Shown here: piece by piece, positions 8,435 to 39,526 of the stretch
Layout of the letters: every line of letters begins with the position of its first letter
Position numbering within the stretch: the stretch's first letter is position 1
Source of the DNA: Candidatus Chloroploca asiatica
GTDB taxonomy: Bacteria > Chloroflexota > Chloroflexia > Chloroflexales > Chloroflexaceae
DNA: 64,000 nt
Reading direction: 5' to 3'
Assembly: GCF_002532075.1 (NCBI RefSeq)
Contig: NZ_LYXE01000090.1
Span: 124,001 to 188,000, forward strand
Notes under the pieces: generated by a model
The model's database searches: none
Told to the model about the DNA's origin: nothing
What the model saw: the letters and a program-made list of their open reading frames with translations, nothing else
Program-made: the position numbers and the translations under genes

Positions 8435-11400
8435 TCAAACCCGGGCAAGCTGGAGAAGCTGATGCTCATCTTCTCTGACCAGAAGCGCGCGTCCTGGAGG
8501 TTGCTCGGCACTGCGTTGATCGCTCAGGGGGAGGGCGACCCCCAGCAGGCGGGTGCCGGGATCATACCGGCCAGGCCAGAGAATAAGGCCGGAACGCCCC
8601 GCATCCAGCGCACGTAGAAGGTTATCATCAGCATAGGCCACGCTGGCGGCGAGCAGTAGATGCTCACCATAACGACCACCAACCTGGATCATTTCGCCCA
8701 GCGTATCGAGCAGATTGGGGCTGCCACCATAACTCTGCGCAAACTGGGCGCGCATACGCTCACGGCAAAGGTTGTAGTCATCAATGAGGACAAGTCGTCG
8801 GGGCGGTGAAGCGGCCATCCTTGCCGCGACGAGATCGATCCTCAACGCACCCGCCCCATGTTCATCATCCGCATAGAAACGGGTATGGGCCAGTTCACGC
8901 AGCGCAGACAGGTTGCTCCGCGGGCCATCGAGAATGTAGAGGCCCAGTTCAGCGGGATTGTGATGGGCAGTCAGTTGATGCACGATCATGTGGAGCAGGC
9001 TCGTTTTACCACTACGTCGGGGACCAATAACAAGCGCATGCGGCGTTTCACTATCCAGCGCCAGCCACGCAGTATGAAGATTACGGCTTTCGCGACCAAT
9101 AGGGAGCACCAGCCCACCGTGCGTATGTGCGGGTGGCATAGGCGTGGCAAGGGTAGCCACCGTGATGCGCTCGGGGAGCAACTCAACACGCATTGGTTCG
9201 GGATCAGAGCTTCCTCTTTCGCCCCAGAACGCAGCCAGATAGGTCACATAATCGCGCACCTCACTGGTGAGATCAGGCTCGAATGGACTTGCCTCGCGTT
9301 CGGCGACACCGGTTGGGGCCAACGCCATAGAAGGAAGGGCAACCTGGAGATCAAGCGCTCCATAATCGGGATGCGCAACCAGAGCACGTCCAGGCTGACC
9401 TGCAGGCAGCGGCGTTGTCACCCGCGTGCCGAGCAGTTCGCTATAGTCGTGAAGATCGGGCTGACGGAGCGTAAGGCGATGCTCGATCAAAGCTAACAAA
9501 CGATAGCTCAGATCCGTGGCGCGATCAGCACTTATGACGAGATGCATACCACAGGATCGTCCGAGGCGTGCCAGACGGATCAGGGTTGCCAACAACTCAT
9601 CGTCGCCACCCTGTTCGCCAAATTCTTCACGGAGAACCGCGAGCTTATCAATGACAACCAGAAGTTCTGGGAGAACGATACCTGTCCGCAGCCGGTAGGC
9701 CGCGAGATCAGCCGCATCGGCAGCGCGCAAAAGCTCTTGCCGTTCACGAAGCGTGGTGTCCAGCATACGCAAAAGGCGACGCACCCGTTCAACCTCACGA
9801 GCTTGCAAATGGTCACCAACATGCGGCAGACCAATGAGTGAACCGAGACCCTGGCCACCTGCGTCAACCAGGTAACACCAGAGCGTCTGGGGCGAAAAAG
9901 TCTGGGCCAGACTCAGCACGAGCGTACGCAGTAGCGTTGTTTTACCACTGCCGGGAGCACCAACCAGAGCCACATGTCCGGTCGCAAAGTCAAAGGCAAA
10001 AGGTTGGCGGCGACACTCCTGGGGCACATCAAGCAAGCCAATAGGCGCCGCAAGCCATTGTGCTTGTCCAGATGCTTCGCTTGATGAACGAGACGTTGGC
10101 TCAGCAACCAGTGTTCTGAGGGTCAGGCGGAGTGGGAGCGGTGGTTGCCAGATGGGCTGTGGTAGCCAGCCAGGGTAGGCAGGTTCCATGGTGCTGCCAG
10201 CCGTGCGGAGGGCACGGACGAGCAGATCGAGGTCTGTTTCGCGTTCAGTTGAAGAACCGGGATGCCCTGGCGCAACCGGTTGTTCCTGGCCGTTGCGCAA
10301 GAAACTCACACGGGGGCCTTGTGTCCCAGGTTCAGTGGGCTGATAGACTCCAGTAACGACGGCGACCTGGAGGGGCCTCACTTCGCCGCCTGAGCGCATA
10401 TAGGCCCGGCCAGGCACATCAGTTGTCAAGAAGGCGGCATCAGGCTTGAGCAACATCGTACGACTATCTTCCGCATTGCCCAAGCGCAGAGCAACAAAGA
10501 AACTCAATTGGCTGCGAATCTCATCAGTAACGGCACGCGAAGGTTGCTGTGTTGCGAGCAGCAGATGCACGCCGAGACTGCGACCCTGTTTGACGACCCG
10601 GATTAACTCGGCCACAAAGTCGGGATACGTGCGCGCTAATTCATCAAACTCATCAACGACAATCAGCAGGTTGGGCAAAGGTGGCAGACCCTGGCTAGCG
10701 GCGAGCCCCCGATAATCGCGGATATTTTCAACCTTGACCTCGTGGGTGGTAGCCAGGGCTTTGAGCAAACTTTTGCGGCGTCGTAACTCACTCTTGATCG
10801 ACGTCACGGCGCGTTCGGCCATACGGCCCTCGAGATCGGTGACAAGACCTGCGGTATGCGGAAGGGGTTCAAACATCATCAGCCCTGCCCCGCCCTTGAA
10901 ATCAATCAAGAGCAACTGCAAGCGTTCGGGGCTATGGGTGGCACACAGCGCAGCAACCATTGTTTGCAGCAACACACTCTTGCCTGCCCCGGTTGCCCCG
11001 GCGATAATACCGTGCGGCCCATGACGGCCTTCATTGAGATCGAGACAGACCGGCACGCCATCCGCACCGGCACCGATCGGAACATCGGGATGCCACGCCA
11101 GAGGCAATGGTTTTGACCAAGCTGCGGGTGGCGTCAGACTCAGCTCATTGCGTATACCAAGCAAATCAAAGAGTCTGACACTACGCGGAAGATCCTGTGC
11201 GCCACCACGTTCGAGCAAACGAATGCCTGCAAGGCGGCGTGCGAGCTGATCACTTAGCGCAAGCACAACCTGATCGGGCGTAAAACGCCCACGGGGCCAC
11301 TGTTCGCCGCTGCGAACCCAGCGACCACCATAGGCATCGAGTTCCAGCATCGCAGCACAATCTTCAGGAATCTGATGCCACGCCGCGACCAGCAAGAGAC

Positions 11401-34552: not shown

Positions 34553-35176
34553 TCATTCTATGATTGATGAGGCAATAGGAAGACCTGTCATTGACGTAAG
34601 GATGCCCATAATCTTTTCCACGTTGTCAATATAATATTCTCGGTCATCAATACGAATAACATCGGTTTCAAGTTGGAGAAATCGCCAGTTTGTTCCTGTG
34701 GTAACGGCTCCATAAATAATGGGAATGCTATTTTGTTCCCGCTCATTAAAGCGTTGTGCTGCAATCATTGCGGCAATGCACTGCGCAAATCCTCCTTTGA
34801 TATTCTCATTTTTTGCTTCAAAAATAATGAGTACTGGTGCGCTGATAAAGAGTTGTTGCGATGATTGTGAAATAATGTAATCACAAATTCCATTGAGTCC
34901 TTGCGTAGCATCAACCGAAAAATCGACGCCAGAGAATAAACTCGTTGTTCGCCCGGTCTGCTTCCGCAATTCGACCAAAATAGGCGCAATAAGGAGTTCT
35001 GACCGTACTTTTTCTGTGTTGATGGCAAGGGCAAGAGACAGCGTTTCATGCAACGTTTCGGTCAGCCAGGCACTGACGGGAACACTTGGGGTCTCTGAGA
35101 ATAAAGCGACATTTTCATCAATGATAAGATGAAAGCGCTGCTTCAGATCGACGAGTTTGAAATCACTGTAGGCCAT
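34553..35176 (-). CDS. PD-(D/E)XK nuclease-fold protein of unknown role
   Basis: A 207-aa protein with Asp99 (GICDYI) and Glu120-Ala-Lys122 (IIFEAKNENIKGG), the PD-(D/E)XK nuclease signature, plus a supporting Glu near residue 60 and Gln131-Cys in the following helix. AAGGAG precedes ATG 35176. Base composition is more AT-rich than in the flanking core genes, as in other accessory genes here. Such proteins are widespread in filamentous bacteria; whether it cuts DNA is unknown. No methyltransferase partner is intact nearby. Confidence 0.7.
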   Translation of the reverse strand: MAYSDFKLVDLKQRFHLIIDENVALFSETPSVPVSAWLTETLHETLSLALAINTEKVRSELLIAPILVELRKQTGRTTSLFSGVDFSVDATQGLNGICDYIISQSSQQLFISAPVLIIFEAKNENIKGGFAQCIAAMIAAQRFNEREQNSIPIIYGAVTTGTNWRFLQLETDVIRIDDREYYIDNVEKIMGILTSMTGLPIASSIIE

Positions 35177-35398
35177 GAGGCTCTCCTTAGGCTCGGGACG
35201 ATACGTCTATTGTAGCAACAGGGCCGACGTTACGCAATAAAACACGCCGGTTGTCTTTCTCCGTTCAGCGAAAAACGGTTTACGTATAGATACGCTCAAC
35301 AGCCGCGGCTCCACTTGAGCGTGCCGAGCGTCGGATGCTCGATGTCAGAGGTCTTGAAGAGGCCGAACATGTGCTTAGCCCTCGGGTTGCGCCGCGCC

Positions 35399-35463
35399 GC
35401 CTAACGGATAGCGTCAGTTGCGCCGCTCTTGGGAGGCGTCCACTAGCAAGCCGAGCGTTAGGC
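35399..35463 (-). repeat. attC-like integron recombination site 1
   Basis: On the minus strand it begins GCCTAAC (R'' consensus RYYYAAC) and ends GTTAGGC (R' consensus GTTRRRY), perfectly complementary. Inner segments AGTGGACGCC and GGCGCAACT pair with single-base bulges, as in attC L boxes with extrahelical bases. It is 65 bp long and starts 15 nt after the methyltransferase stop. The rest of the 35177-35478 gap holds no gene. Confidence 0.5.
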
Positions 35464-35478
35464 AGCCGAGGTGGCGCA

Positions 35479-36231
35479 CTATGACGGACGATGTCTGAAG
35501 ACGTATATCGCCCAGCCCAAGGTGTCTCGCCCCCAGCGAAGATACTCAGCCTTGCCTTTGGCTACGCGCTCCAAGAGCTCGGGCAGATCGGGATCGTCTG
35601 GGTGACAGCGGGCGTATTCAGCCGCCGCATACCATTGCAGGCCTTCGTACTTGTCCCAGTCATCCTTGCTGCTCACAAACGTGTGAACCAGCTCGAGCCC
35701 CCGTAGTTCACCGGCCTCTGCGTTGCCAACATGTGTCCCAAAGCTGTCTCTGCTGGCCCCCGATGCCGCAAGATATTCCTCTGAGGGCTGCTGAAGCCAG
35801 TAGGGCTCCCCGACAATCACCCAACCACCGGGCGCAACCATGCCCGAGAGCGCGTCCAGAGTCGCTGCGTGACCACCGAACACCCAGCTGGCGCCGATGC
35901 AGGAGGCCAGCGTCAAGCTGCGCGGCTCTTCGGGCCTGAAGTCGGAGCCGTTCATCTGACTGAAGACGACCTTTGCCCCCTGCACTCGCATCTGCAGCTG
36001 CCTCTGTGCGTCGGCGATGCAGAATGGTGAAATATCAATTCCGATTCCACGGATGCCATACGCTTCAGCCAAGCGAATCAGGAACTCACCTTTTCCACAG
36101 GCGATGTCGACCACGTGCGCTTCCGCTGGAAGCCGCAAGAGACCGACAAGTCGCGCCAGTTTTTCGTTGCTTGTGGGATTACACACCACGTGTTCGCGGT
36201 GTGTAATGTCGTAGAATTTCCACGTGTCCAT
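35479..36231 (-). CDS. Class I SAM-dependent methyltransferase, possible integron cassette gene
   Basis: A 250-aa protein with the SAM-binding motif VVDIACGKGEFLIRL, then GIGIDISPFCIADA, and a post-core Gly-Gly-Trp strand (PGGWVIVGEPYWL). The substrate is unknown; related proteins methylate small molecules. AAGGA lies 9 nt before ATG 36231. A GTTGGAT core (minus strand, 36258-36252) lies 21 nt before the ATG and an attC-like site lies 15 nt after the stop, the arrangement of a mobile cassette. Confidence 0.78.
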   Translation of the reverse strand: MDTWKFYDITHREHVVCNPTSNEKLARLVGLLRLPAEAHVVDIACGKGEFLIRLAEAYGIRGIGIDISPFCIADAQRQLQMRVQGAKVVFSQMNGSDFRPEEPRSLTLASCIGASWVFGGHAATLDALSGMVAPGGWVIVGEPYWLQQPSEEYLAASGASRDSFGTHVGNAEAGELRGLELVHTFVSSKDDWDKYEGLQWYAAAEYARCHPDDPDLPELLERVAKGKAEYLRWGRDTLGWAIYVFRHRPS

Positions 36232-36352
36232 GTTTCTCAATCCTTCGACGGATCCAACGCACAGCTGTTAGCTACCCTTATCATCTCGATGGTCACAGGT
36301 CGACGCCGATGGGAGACTTCTGACTGCAGTGCGGCGCTGCCGCCGCTCCCGT

Positions 36353-36976
36353 TCATTCGTCGCACTCTTCGTTGGCTGCTTCGCGGGTTATCCCCATTTT
36401 GTTGGGTGCTAATTCAACTTTCTCATAGACATCCTCAATGGTCAAGACACAATCAATTGAGCGAATGCTGACGTGTGCCGTTATGCCAATGGCCTCATAC
36501 AAAAGCCATATTCCATGTTCCTGGCGTGTGAAGTGCTCAATCCGATGATCATCTTGCGCTATCAGGATATAATCCTGGAACGATGGGATCGTTCGATACT
36601 GTTGAAACTTCATGCCACGATCGTACCGTTCCGTTGATGGTGAGAGGACTTCAATAATAACGGTTGGATTCGTGATCGTAAGGCGTGATGCTTCAATAAA
36701 CTGTGGCTGTCCGCACACAACCGTTACATCCGGATACGTGTGCAACCCAGTGGTCAAAACTTTAATCCGCTGATCACTAGGATAGACACGGCATGGACGG
36801 CGACGCAGTTGTGCATGCAGTGACGCATAGGCATTTCCTGCCAACAAATTGTGCGGCTCGGTTCCGCCCGTCATGGCAAAAATATCACCCTGATAATATT
36901 CGTGCTTGCGGGAGCTTGCCACCTCAAACTCGATATACTCTTCTTCCGTCATATATCGTTTTGGCTGTGCCGTCAT
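36353..36976 (-). CDS. Uma2-family PD-(D/E)XK protein (copy 1)
   Basis: A 207-aa protein starting MTAQPKRYMTEEEY with the family pattern: RKHEYYQGDIFAMTGG, CRVYPSDQRIKV, YPDVTVVCG, NPTVIIEVLSPSTERYDRG and KFQQYRTIPSFQDYILI. Asp in YPD and Glu in IEVLS are the nuclease-fold residues. The biological role of Uma2 proteins is not established. GGAGG precedes ATG 36976. Paralogous to the gene at 37233. Confidence 0.88.
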   Translation of the reverse strand: MTAQPKRYMTEEEYIEFEVASSRKHEYYQGDIFAMTGGTEPHNLLAGNAYASLHAQLRRRPCRVYPSDQRIKVLTTGLHTYPDVTVVCGQPQFIEASRLTITNPTVIIEVLSPSTERYDRGMKFQQYRTIPSFQDYILIAQDDHRIEHFTRQEHGIWLLYEAIGITAHVSIRSIDCVLTIEDVYEKVELAPNKMGITREAANEECDE

Positions 36977-37226
36977 CGCTGCCTCCATGCGGTCTGCGTA
37001 CCAGAGATACCTCAATCATAGCGCGCATGTTCTGTAAATTCAAGCCCCGAACATACGCGTATGATTGTGGACTGAGCCGTACCGCCTCGCCATACGGCTC
37101 GTAGTGCGCGAAGAGGGCTCTTTGCAGTTCGCTTTGCACCCGCGCCAAGTCCGCCGGGGCGGCGATTGCGTGCGCGAGCGCTTCTGGGTCTGGCCCCTTG
37201 CGGGAACCGGCGATGACAAGGGGCAC
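36924..37226 (-). pseudogene. Possible gene fragment between the two Uma2 genes
   Basis: The reading starting near 37226 (GTG) gives a protein-like stretch, LAHAIAAPADLARVQSELQ, then EPYGEAVRLSPQSYAYVRG. After about residue 76 it continues out of register into the upstream end of the next Uma2 gene. There is no ATG and no good ribosome site. It may be the tail of a lost gene. Family not recognised. Confidence 0.3.
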
Positions 37227-37232
37227 CTTACG

Positions 37233-37835
37233 CTACGTTCGGTCTTCCGAAGGCGATTCGGGAGGAAGATCGACAAGTTCATAGACATCCGCAAGAGCAA
37301 GCGCACACTGGATGGACTCAAGGGTAATTACGGAATCAACACCTACTGCTTCAGTCAAAATCCATGTATTCTCTTCATAACGTGTATATCGTTCGATATG
37401 ATGTTTATTCTGAGCAATGAGAATATACTCTTTCAGGGATGCGATCGTACGATAATTTTGAAATTTAACCCCACGGTCATACCGTTCTGTCGATGGGGAA
37501 AGGATTTCAAGAATGATCGTAGGGTTAAGCAGCGTATCTCTTTTCGTCATGTCAGTAAACTCAGGCGTTCCACAAACAATCGTTATATCAGGATAGGTAT
37601 ATAAGCCAGTTTTAACTATTTTAATCCGCATATCACTTGGATATATTCGACAGCCTCGTCCCCGAATTTGGGCGTATATGCTCGCATTTACGCTACTCGC
37701 GATCAAATTATGCGCCTCACTTGCGCCTGACATGGCAAAAAGCTCACCGGCATAATATTCATGCTTGATCGTGCTCACACGTTCACGCTCAAGGTATTCT
37801 GTTTCGGTAAGATATGGCCGTGGTTGGGCAGTCAT
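37233..37835 (-). CDS. Uma2-family PD-(D/E)XK protein (copy 2)
   Basis: A 200-aa protein with the same signature as copy 1: KHEYYAGELFAMSGA, CRIYPSDMRIKI, YPDITIVCG, NPTIILEILSPSTERYDRG. AAGGAT precedes ATG 37835. Noticeably more AT-rich than copy 1, so the two probably did not arise by recent duplication in this genome. Function unknown. Confidence 0.88.
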   Translation of the reverse strand: MTAQPRPYLTETEYLERERVSTIKHEYYAGELFAMSGASEAHNLIASSVNASIYAQIRGRGCRIYPSDMRIKIVKTGLYTYPDITIVCGTPEFTDMTKRDTLLNPTIILEILSPSTERYDRGVKFQNYRTIASLKEYILIAQNKHHIERYTRYEENTWILTEAVGVDSVITLESIQCALALADVYELVDLPPESPSEDRT

Positions 37836-37972
37836 TTATCCCATCCTTCGTCTTCAGTGATCATATCTTCTGCGAAGCACAACGATATACGTGATCATAT
37901 CAGATTGCACAAGGAAATGCAAGCACACATGTGTTGTTTCGATGCTTGGCATTGGTGCTCGGGTTGAGTGCG

Positions 37973-38091
37973 GCCCAACGACCATGCATCAGGCGCCGGT
38001 GGAACAGCTTTCTGGAGTGGTACAGTGTTGGTGTGCTCCTGGTTTCCAAAATCGCCCCGCTTCCGCCGGTCGCCTGCATGCGGTGTTAGGC
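37973..38091 (-). repeat. attC-like integron recombination site 2
   Basis: On the minus strand it starts GCCTAAC and ends GTTGGGC, both fitting integron core consensus. The outer 28-30 nt on each side form an imperfect inverted repeat (ACC-GCATGC-AGGCG-A-CCGGCGG against its partner) with small bulges. At 119 bp it is the size of VCR-type attC sites. It starts 56 nt after the hydrolase stop. The rest of the 37836-38147 gap has nothing else. Confidence 0.58.
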
Positions 38092-38147: not shown

Positions 38148-39155
38148 TTACTTTGCTAAATGAGAAAGAATCCTTGCATGTATGCTGCCCATATTCGGAT
38201 ACGGAAACACATGCCCCACGCCTTCAAGCCACAGCGCTTCTGCTCCCGGTATCAGTTCGGCCACCCTTTTACCGTGATCGATAGGAAATACCTTGTCGTC
38301 CGTTCCGTGAATGACGAGCGTCGGCACCTCAAGCATTCTCAAACTCTCGTAGCGTGAGCCGCTGACATCGCTCGCCGCCCGGTGTTGCAATAAGGCCTTG
38401 ATGTTAAATCCTTTTCTCTCTCGCAGTTCGTATAAGACGACTTCCGCTGTCTCTTGTATATCTACTTCGATTCCAGCCATGACCATTTTCGCGATTCGTT
38501 CCTTGATAAGATTCTTCTCTCCTCCCATGAGGCGGTACTTTAAGATCGGCAAGCCCTGCGCAATCGACATGAAGAAATGCCGCGATGAGAGAATCGGGAG
38601 CTGCGGGTCTCCCGCGCATCCAGATGTTGACATAAGCGTGAGCGAGGAAACCCGTTCGGGATTATGGACGGCGATTTCCTGGGCGACCATGCCGCCGAGC
38701 GACAAGCCGACCAGGTGTGCTTGATCCACATTGAGCGCATCAAGTACCGCGACAGCATCTTTCGCCATATCCGCAAGCGAGTACGGATGCTTGCTGTTCC
38801 AATGCTCCACCCAATCGGACATGCCCGTTCCGCGAAAGTCATAGCGGATGACACGATATCCGGCATCCACAAAAGCTCGCACGAACATGGGAGGCCACGC
38901 GATCGCATCGCCCGCCATCCCCGTGTTGAGGAGAACCACTCCTTGAGGTTCACCTGCGGGAGCAATACATTCATACCAAATCTGCAATCCGTCTGACGTA
39001 ACAAAGCCTGCCTCGCCCCGGATAACCTGCGGCAATTCACTTTTCAAAACATTCTCAATGATCGCATCCGTATCGGACGGCAGTTTCGGCCCACCAAGAA
39101 CGAGATATGTCGCAAGGGCAAGCAACAACACGAGAAAAAATATAAGAAAATACAT
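38148..39155 (-). CDS. Membrane-anchored alpha/beta hydrolase, possible integron cassette gene
   Basis: A 335-aa protein with one N-terminal membrane helix (residues 2-20, YFLIFFLVLLLALATYLVL) and an alpha/beta hydrolase fold. The nucleophile elbow is GLSLGG with Ser152; the acid is probably in HGTDD and the base in GVGHVF. The ATG at 39155 is favoured (AAGGGA 6 nt upstream) over the ATG at 39182. An attC-like element lies just downstream, suggesting capture as a gene cassette. Substrate unknown. Confidence 0.85.
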   Translation of the reverse strand: MYFLIFFLVLLLALATYLVLGGPKLPSDTDAIIENVLKSELPQVIRGEAGFVTSDGLQIWYECIAPAGEPQGVVLLNTGMAGDAIAWPPMFVRAFVDAGYRVIRYDFRGTGMSDWVEHWNSKHPYSLADMAKDAVAVLDALNVDQAHLVGLSLGGMVAQEIAVHNPERVSSLTLMSTSGCAGDPQLPILSSRHFFMSIAQGLPILKYRLMGGEKNLIKERIAKMVMAGIEVDIQETAEVVLYELRERKGFNIKALLQHRAASDVSGSRYESLRMLEVPTLVIHGTDDKVFPIDHGKRVAELIPGAEALWLEGVGHVFPYPNMGSIHARILSHLAK

Positions 39156-39231
39156 CACGATCCCTTTGGGACTTTTCAACATGTTCGCGGCCTATCCACG
39201 ATCCTGGTCGGTGCTACGCCGCTTCTCCGCA

Positions 39232-39363
39232 GTCTAGACCCAATACCTTGCAAAGTAAGGCGGTTGTTTTGACCCAACGGCGCAACGTTTTTCGCGAAGG
39301 TGCGCAACCCTTCGCGCCTTCGCGACTTCGCGTGAGCTTCTTTGAAACGTATTGAGTCTAGAC
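39232..39363. repeat. MITE-like inverted-repeat element, copy A
   Basis: Two 24-nt ends, GTCTAGAC-cc-AATAC-c-TT-g-CAAAG and its inverted near-copy, enclose about 84 bp rich in TTCGCG repeats. A related sequence lies at 63679-63785, sharing CAATACCTTGCA and the TTGAC junction. No coding capacity. Confidence 0.5.
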
Positions 39364-39526
39364 CCTTTTCACCAGGTGCGCCACCCCCGCGAGATGGACG
39401 CGGCTGAGGTGAGCGCTTTCTTTACGCACCTTGGCGGATGAGTGGGTAGGTGGATACGCGCACAGTGTGCGGCGGTGGGAAGCCACCTACGATGATCGAT
39501 AATGAAGATTCACGGAGGTGGTCGCT

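Follow-up and report, generated by a model that had tools for sequence, protein, structure and literature searches.

The folding of attC sites and strand transfer are established for integrons. In the IntegronFinder definition, a CALIN is a group of at least two attC sites, less than 4 kb apart and in the same orientation, with no intI gene beside them; the minimum number of two attC sites comes from two published sources (PMC9024848; PMC9668308) and the 4 kb spacing from the second (PMC9668308). IntI was reported in Chloroflexi in 2008 (PMC2426708), and sections of later papers place Chloroflexota among the integron-bearing phyla (PMC8618304; PMC9668308).

The window analysed here is a stretch of 64,000 nucleotides from Candidatus Chloroploca asiatica (contig NZ_LYXE01000090.1, positions 124,001 to 188,000). 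Judged from its sequence, a methyltransferase gene in this window is a genuine integron cassette lying in a CALIN, and the CALIN is probably a decayed integron (Table 1). The locus agrees with the CALIN definition in attC number, spacing and orientation and in having no intI gene beside the sites, but differs from other CALINs in that a 23-residue remnant of intI is still there and in that there are only two attC sites. It shares its attC architecture with the sedentary chromosomal integrons of Chloroflexota, including that of the sister Chloroploca sp. Khr17, which has a full-length IntI with attC sites near it, whereas the window locus is without an intact intI. Class 1 cassettes (aadA1, aadB, catB3, qacL) have the same R''/R' boxes and the same order of gene and attC, and attC_A is like class 1 attC sites in having two extrahelical bases six pairs apart. 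However, the arm sequences differ from those of class 1 sites, and the inner stem of attC_B is mismatched.

Table 1. Features of the integron-related locus in the window, in order of position.
Feature	Position	Strand	Basis
24-codon ORF directly after attC_B, probably a truncated second cassette	35296..35370	minus	read directly
attC_B, attC belonging to the methyltransferase cassette; R boxes perfect, inner stem weak, 3' half apparently hybrid	35399..35463	minus	R1, R2, alignment
Cassette gene, SAM-dependent methyltransferase, YjhP family, 250 aa	35479..36231	minus	Pfam, PDB
Upstream cassette boundary GTTGGAT (G/TT crossover type)	36258-36252	minus	read directly
Second Uma2-family gene between the attC sites, not clearly a cassette	36353..37015	minus	PF05685, E 6.7e-31
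Uma2-family gene between the attC sites, not clearly a cassette	37233..37835	minus	PF05685, E 1e-29
attC_A, the other attC of the locus, canonical, 119 nt; L'' arm with two extrahelical bases	37973..38091	minus	hairpin, R1, R2
Alpha/beta hydrolase, probable cassette gene	38148..39182	minus	Pfam PF00561, E 6.6e-28
intI remnant of 23 residues, directed away from the cassettes	39367..39435	plus	tblastn, DNA match

The layout described in the first-pass annotation (GTTGGAT, ATG, stop codon and palindrome on the minus strand) was borne out by direct reading. In the minus-strand reading of the window, GTTGGAT lies 20 bases 5' of the methyltransferase ATG at 36231, and the stop codon, at 35481-35479, is followed by 15 bases and then attC_B. 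The gene and attC_B have the same orientation and the boundary falls at G/TT, which is the arrangement of a cassette. Both sister species, Candidatus Chloroploca mongolica and Khr17, read CTTGGAT where the window has GTTGGAT, so that the boundary box itself is not conserved; the sequence directly after it, TTGGATCC, is conserved in both.

The encoded protein matches Pfam Methyltransf_25 (E 5.7e-10) and is alike over its full length to YjhP (PDB 1nkv; E 1.1e-37, residues 1-245), from which it differs in being cassette-borne. The gene is found at 99% in C. mongolica and at 98% in Khr17, which, with 97% at the DNA level, places the window in Chloroploca. Copies within Chloroploca differ by 7 bases (5 synonymous, 2 non-synonymous) to 20 bases (14 and 6), and the excess of synonymous differences fits a gene that is kept for function. 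The 24-codon ORF that follows attC_B is also present in C. mongolica, there with a stop at codon 20, and has no family match in Pfam or NCBIfam. An ORF of 207 codons (34553-35176) has no Pfam match and is missing at the equivalent place in C. mongolica.

Two covariance models were used to locate attC sites. R1 was purpose-built from 16 attC sites, none of them from the window or the orthologous locus: six were taken from cassettes of class 1 integrons on E. coli plasmids and the other ten from loci in Acidobacteria and Chloroflexota, two of these ten being near the intact intI of Khr17. R2 was made from 25 sites found by R1 in ten loci, the window and the orthologous locus again being left out. 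With default filters, R1 identified two places only in the window, which are attC_A and attC_B. With the filters off, the 65-bp attC_B again ranked first and the 119-nt attC_A was not listed, which we ascribe to the limit of R1 on hit length. Rfam at gathering thresholds gave two tRNAs only in the window.

The attC_A site, which the first-pass annotation had overlooked, has R boxes, L boxes with extrahelical bases, and high covariance scores in the window (29.5 bits, E 3.3e-6 with R1; 43.4 bits, E 8.3e-8 with R2). Its hairpin has a z of 3.9, equalled by none of 60 shuffles. The two sites are on the same strand and 2.5 kb apart (from 35463 to 37973, within the 4 kb limit), and all that the window contains of an integrase is the 23-residue remnant, in place of the adjacent intact intI of a complete integron. 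The earlier proposal of a captured cassette with its attC in a CALIN-like setting is upheld.

The hydrolase gene ends 56 nt before attC_A. Its nearest relatives are macrolide esterases, although it falls far below the curated cut-offs for these (NCBIfam NF052610, 151.9 bits against 420). Of 151 Chloroflexota genomes sampled, 150 have no match to it at E <= 1e-40; the sample apparently includes neither sister genome. Of the sister species, C. mongolica has the gene and Khr17 lacks it. A scan of viral contigs gave no relative of the hydrolase. A 98% match in C. mongolica covers attC_A, the hydrolase and the region past it, and the contig ends of C. mongolica read as though an inserted element parts the contig bearing attC_A from that bearing the methyltransferase. 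As a separate observation on the tandem Uma2-family genes (36353-37835), the one tested matches the PADLOC PDC-S03 models.

The intI remnant is located 1.3 kb beyond attC_A and has 69.6% identity to the IntI of Khr17 (tblastn, E 3.7e-5); at the DNA level it is 85.5% identical over 76 nt to the intI of contig C45. Two truncated intI genes, running to profile positions 254 and 165 of 315, are present on other contigs of the genome, and no intact intI was found in this genome assembly. The first-pass annotation had stated that there was no integrase nearby. This holds for an intact intI, but not as a history free of intI, given the remnant, the two truncated genes and the full-length gene in Khr17. 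Its expectation that such a cassette would be unusual in this phylum was not sustained: IntI occurs at E <= 1e-60 in 32 of 301 Chloroflexota genomes, 30 of which exceed the cut-off of the family, and in 10 of the 19 listed genomes of the same family.

Several further features of the intI genes were noted. The gene stops at profile position 254 of 315 in C. asiatica and C. mongolica alike, and an attC-like site scoring 41.2 bits adjoins each of the two ends (L001 (G000:C119) 1314-1500; L101 (G001:C86) 8914-9124), as if the end of a cassette had replaced the catalytic C-terminus. Two contigs of the C. asiatica genome have their first 77 bases in common (L001 1-77, L002 1-77), just 5' of two different truncated intI genes, and past the shared bases there are repeats of approximately 60 bp with GTGCTACGCCGC-like units. 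Within the window, an inverted-repeat insert at 39231-39366 (AGTCTAGACCCAATAC ... GTATTGAGTCTAGACC) is found beside the intI remnant and is possibly a small transposable element; its ends gave 3 matches against 0.81 expected, a number equalled by 3 of 100 shuffles and so not clearly above chance, and a further search did not list the insert.

At E <= 0.05, R2 found at least 19, at least 37 and at least 23 attC sites in the three Chloroploca genomes, spread over many contigs; these counts are lower bounds, 150 of 2193-2624 candidates having been scored per genome. In a control of 12 genomes without an IntI match (E <= 1e-60), R2 found attC sites in six of the eight that belong to the same family, as CALINs would produce, and in none of the four from another family of the order. 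One genome has 16 attC sites. Integrons are common in this lineage, and the cassette array belongs to a known kind of system. Elsewhere in the C. asiatica genome, contig C39 (L140, G000:C39:1-6000) has five attC sites within 3.5 kb and no recognised intI on the stretch read; we take the small ORFs of this array to be toxin-antitoxin-like genes.

Two observations count against a decayed integron: there is no attC just 5' of the methyltransferase gene, and 1.7 kb containing the Uma2 genes but no attC lies between the two cassettes. The first of these also favours a possible, if somewhat doubtful, alternative, namely that an integrase acting in trans placed the methyltransferase cassette by itself into a secondary (non-attC) site of the chromosome, with no connection to attC_A or the intI remnant, in which case the locus would record two neighbouring events and not the decay of one integron. 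Such an insertion is consistent with the difference between species in the base upstream, with the existence of a full-length IntI in the genus, and with the occurrence of attC matches on many contigs. It does not readily account for the placing of attC_A and attC_B on the same strand 2.5 kb apart, with a divergent intI remnant behind them in the canonical orientation, nor for the fact that C. mongolica has this arrangement in common with the window.

The methyltransferase gene occurs at 98% or more in three of 41 genomes of the family, with one more at 38%, and has homologues in Planctomycetota, Acidobacteria, Cyanobacteria and other MAGs, mostly at 54-95%. We compared 43 homologous loci, some of them cut by contig ends. 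In 15 loci GTTRRRY is present 14-34 nt before the ATG, where shuffles predict 0.91; the 43 include two Chloroploca loci, which have CTT and are outside the 15. Mean pairwise identity among the 15 rises from 0.27 over the 25 nt preceding GTT to 0.74 over the 21 nt that begin with it. A drop in identity at GTT across phyla is what a cassette boundary predicts. In one of the 15 (L038) the box is at 16 nt and in a different context. By record title, the 15 loci belong to Planctomycetota, Acidobacteria, 'Deltaproteobacteria' with Syntrophaceae, Cyanobacteria, Actinomycetes, Rhodothermia, Calditrichaceae and CSSED10-310; most of them, if not all, are MAGs, so that single assignments may be wrong.

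It is conceivable that the gene was spread between phyla by a plasmid, phage or transposon and that its association with attC is secondary. The 28 of the 43 loci that have no GTTRRRY at the expected distance would agree with this, as would the distant homologue YjhP of E. coli, from which it follows that the family exists outside cassettes, and we note that MAG contigs can be misbinned. We nevertheless regard this as unlikely, because homologues under about eight phylum-level names lose identity at GTT, and because an Acidobacteria contig (L026) has the methyltransferase gene within an attC array.

The palindrome after the methyltransferase, attC_B, is 65 bp long and runs from GCCTAAC to GTTAGGC (35463-35399), its R''/R' boxes (RYYYAAC / GTTRRRY) pairing at all seven of seven positions. 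The window has a single exact occurrence of GCCTAAC-N(40-70)-GTTAGGC, where 100 shuffles predict 0.01. An attC covariance score had been named beforehand as the check on this interval, and it is significant in the window: with R1 the minus strand scores 25.2 bits (E 6e-5) and the plus strand 12.7 bits (E 0.25), and R2 gives 27.6 bits. At whole-genome scale the E-values are 0.0055 (R1) and 0.0175 (R2), and for this reason we take attC_B alone to be moderate evidence, which becomes strong once homology is added.

The inner boxes with bulged bases reported in the first-pass annotation were recovered in part. R1 aligns L'' and L' around extra bases, non-standard pairs included, but the pairing is no better than that of shuffles: with the R boxes held, 12 of 60 shuffles reached it for the minus strand and 13 of 60 for the plus strand. 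The DNA folding energy was reached by 49 and 62 of 100 shuffles, and z for the whole element is -0.32. The L boxes appear to be present but weak in the window, and they are strong in C. mongolica. A transcription terminator, or a GC-rich inverted repeat that by chance follows an ordinary gene, would suit an inner part that folds no better than shuffles, but this reading is very improbable and is refuted in the main by the strand-specific covariance score and by a strong attC at the equivalent place in C. mongolica, together with the rarity of the R-box pattern, the lack of a T run after the palindrome, and a cassette boundary conserved in other phyla. A native (non-cassette) methyltransferase gene was also considered and rejected.

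A comparison of homologues for the palindrome at this site, suggested along with the cassette proposal, came out in its favour. In C. mongolica the same place has a near-perfect attC (z 5.8, reached by none of 60 shuffles; folding energy by none of 100), and Khr17 has the left half only, adjoining a deletion. The left half of attC_B agrees with both sister species. The right half of the C. mongolica site agrees with a Planctomycetota homologue (L025), whereas the right half of the window site does not; instead, it matches at 94% the last 33 bases of an attC-like site on contig C191. That site is 245 nt long (L064 (G000:C191) 1502-1746; R2 22.3 bits), with the match to attC_B at its right end. 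The simplest reading is that the lineage of the window exchanged the right half of attC_B. We tentatively suggest that attC_B is a hybrid formed free of integrase, in which the left half is that of the ancestral attC of the methyltransferase and the right half derives from a different attC in this genome. If two attC sites underwent an exchange within their central loops, the intervening cassettes would be lost, yet a recognisable attC would remain.

It is highly probable from these comparisons that the methyltransferase gene reached the Chloroploca lineage in the form of an integron cassette and now lies in the remains of an integron. This reading builds on the observed attC sites and their orientation, the intI remnant, the retention of the locus in sister species and the cross-phylum boundary. 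It is also favoured by the many attC matches in the Chloroploca genomes, set against none in the four genomes of another family, and by the occurrence of the gene in few genomes of its own family but in several other phyla. IntI would have captured the methyltransferase cassette by site-specific recombination of its folded attC, and we infer both that recombination made the insertion and that the pieces once formed one integron. In order, the remains would then comprise the stump of intI, the hydrolase followed by attC_A, the two Uma2 genes, the methyltransferase followed by attC_B, and one more cassette, which is truncated. Also to be set against a decayed integron are the weakness of attC_B alone, the CTT of the sister species, the survival of just 23 residues of intI, and the 28 loci in which GTTRRRY is missing. 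Since no intact intI was found in this assembly, the array would move only if an integrase were supplied in trans, while the methyltransferase gene stays conserved.

In the literature searched, no paper combines 'Chloroploca' with 'integron', and none joins 'filamentous anoxygenic' with 'attC' and 'integron'. The present analysis contributes one integron locus from Chloroploca, a phototrophic genus with three genomes rich in attC sites, and names one cassette gene, a YjhP-family methyltransferase, with a boundary that can be traced across many phyla. The hybrid origin of attC_B, if true, would give integron arrays a means of shrinking and attC sites a means of evolving, the latter by the swapping of half-sites.
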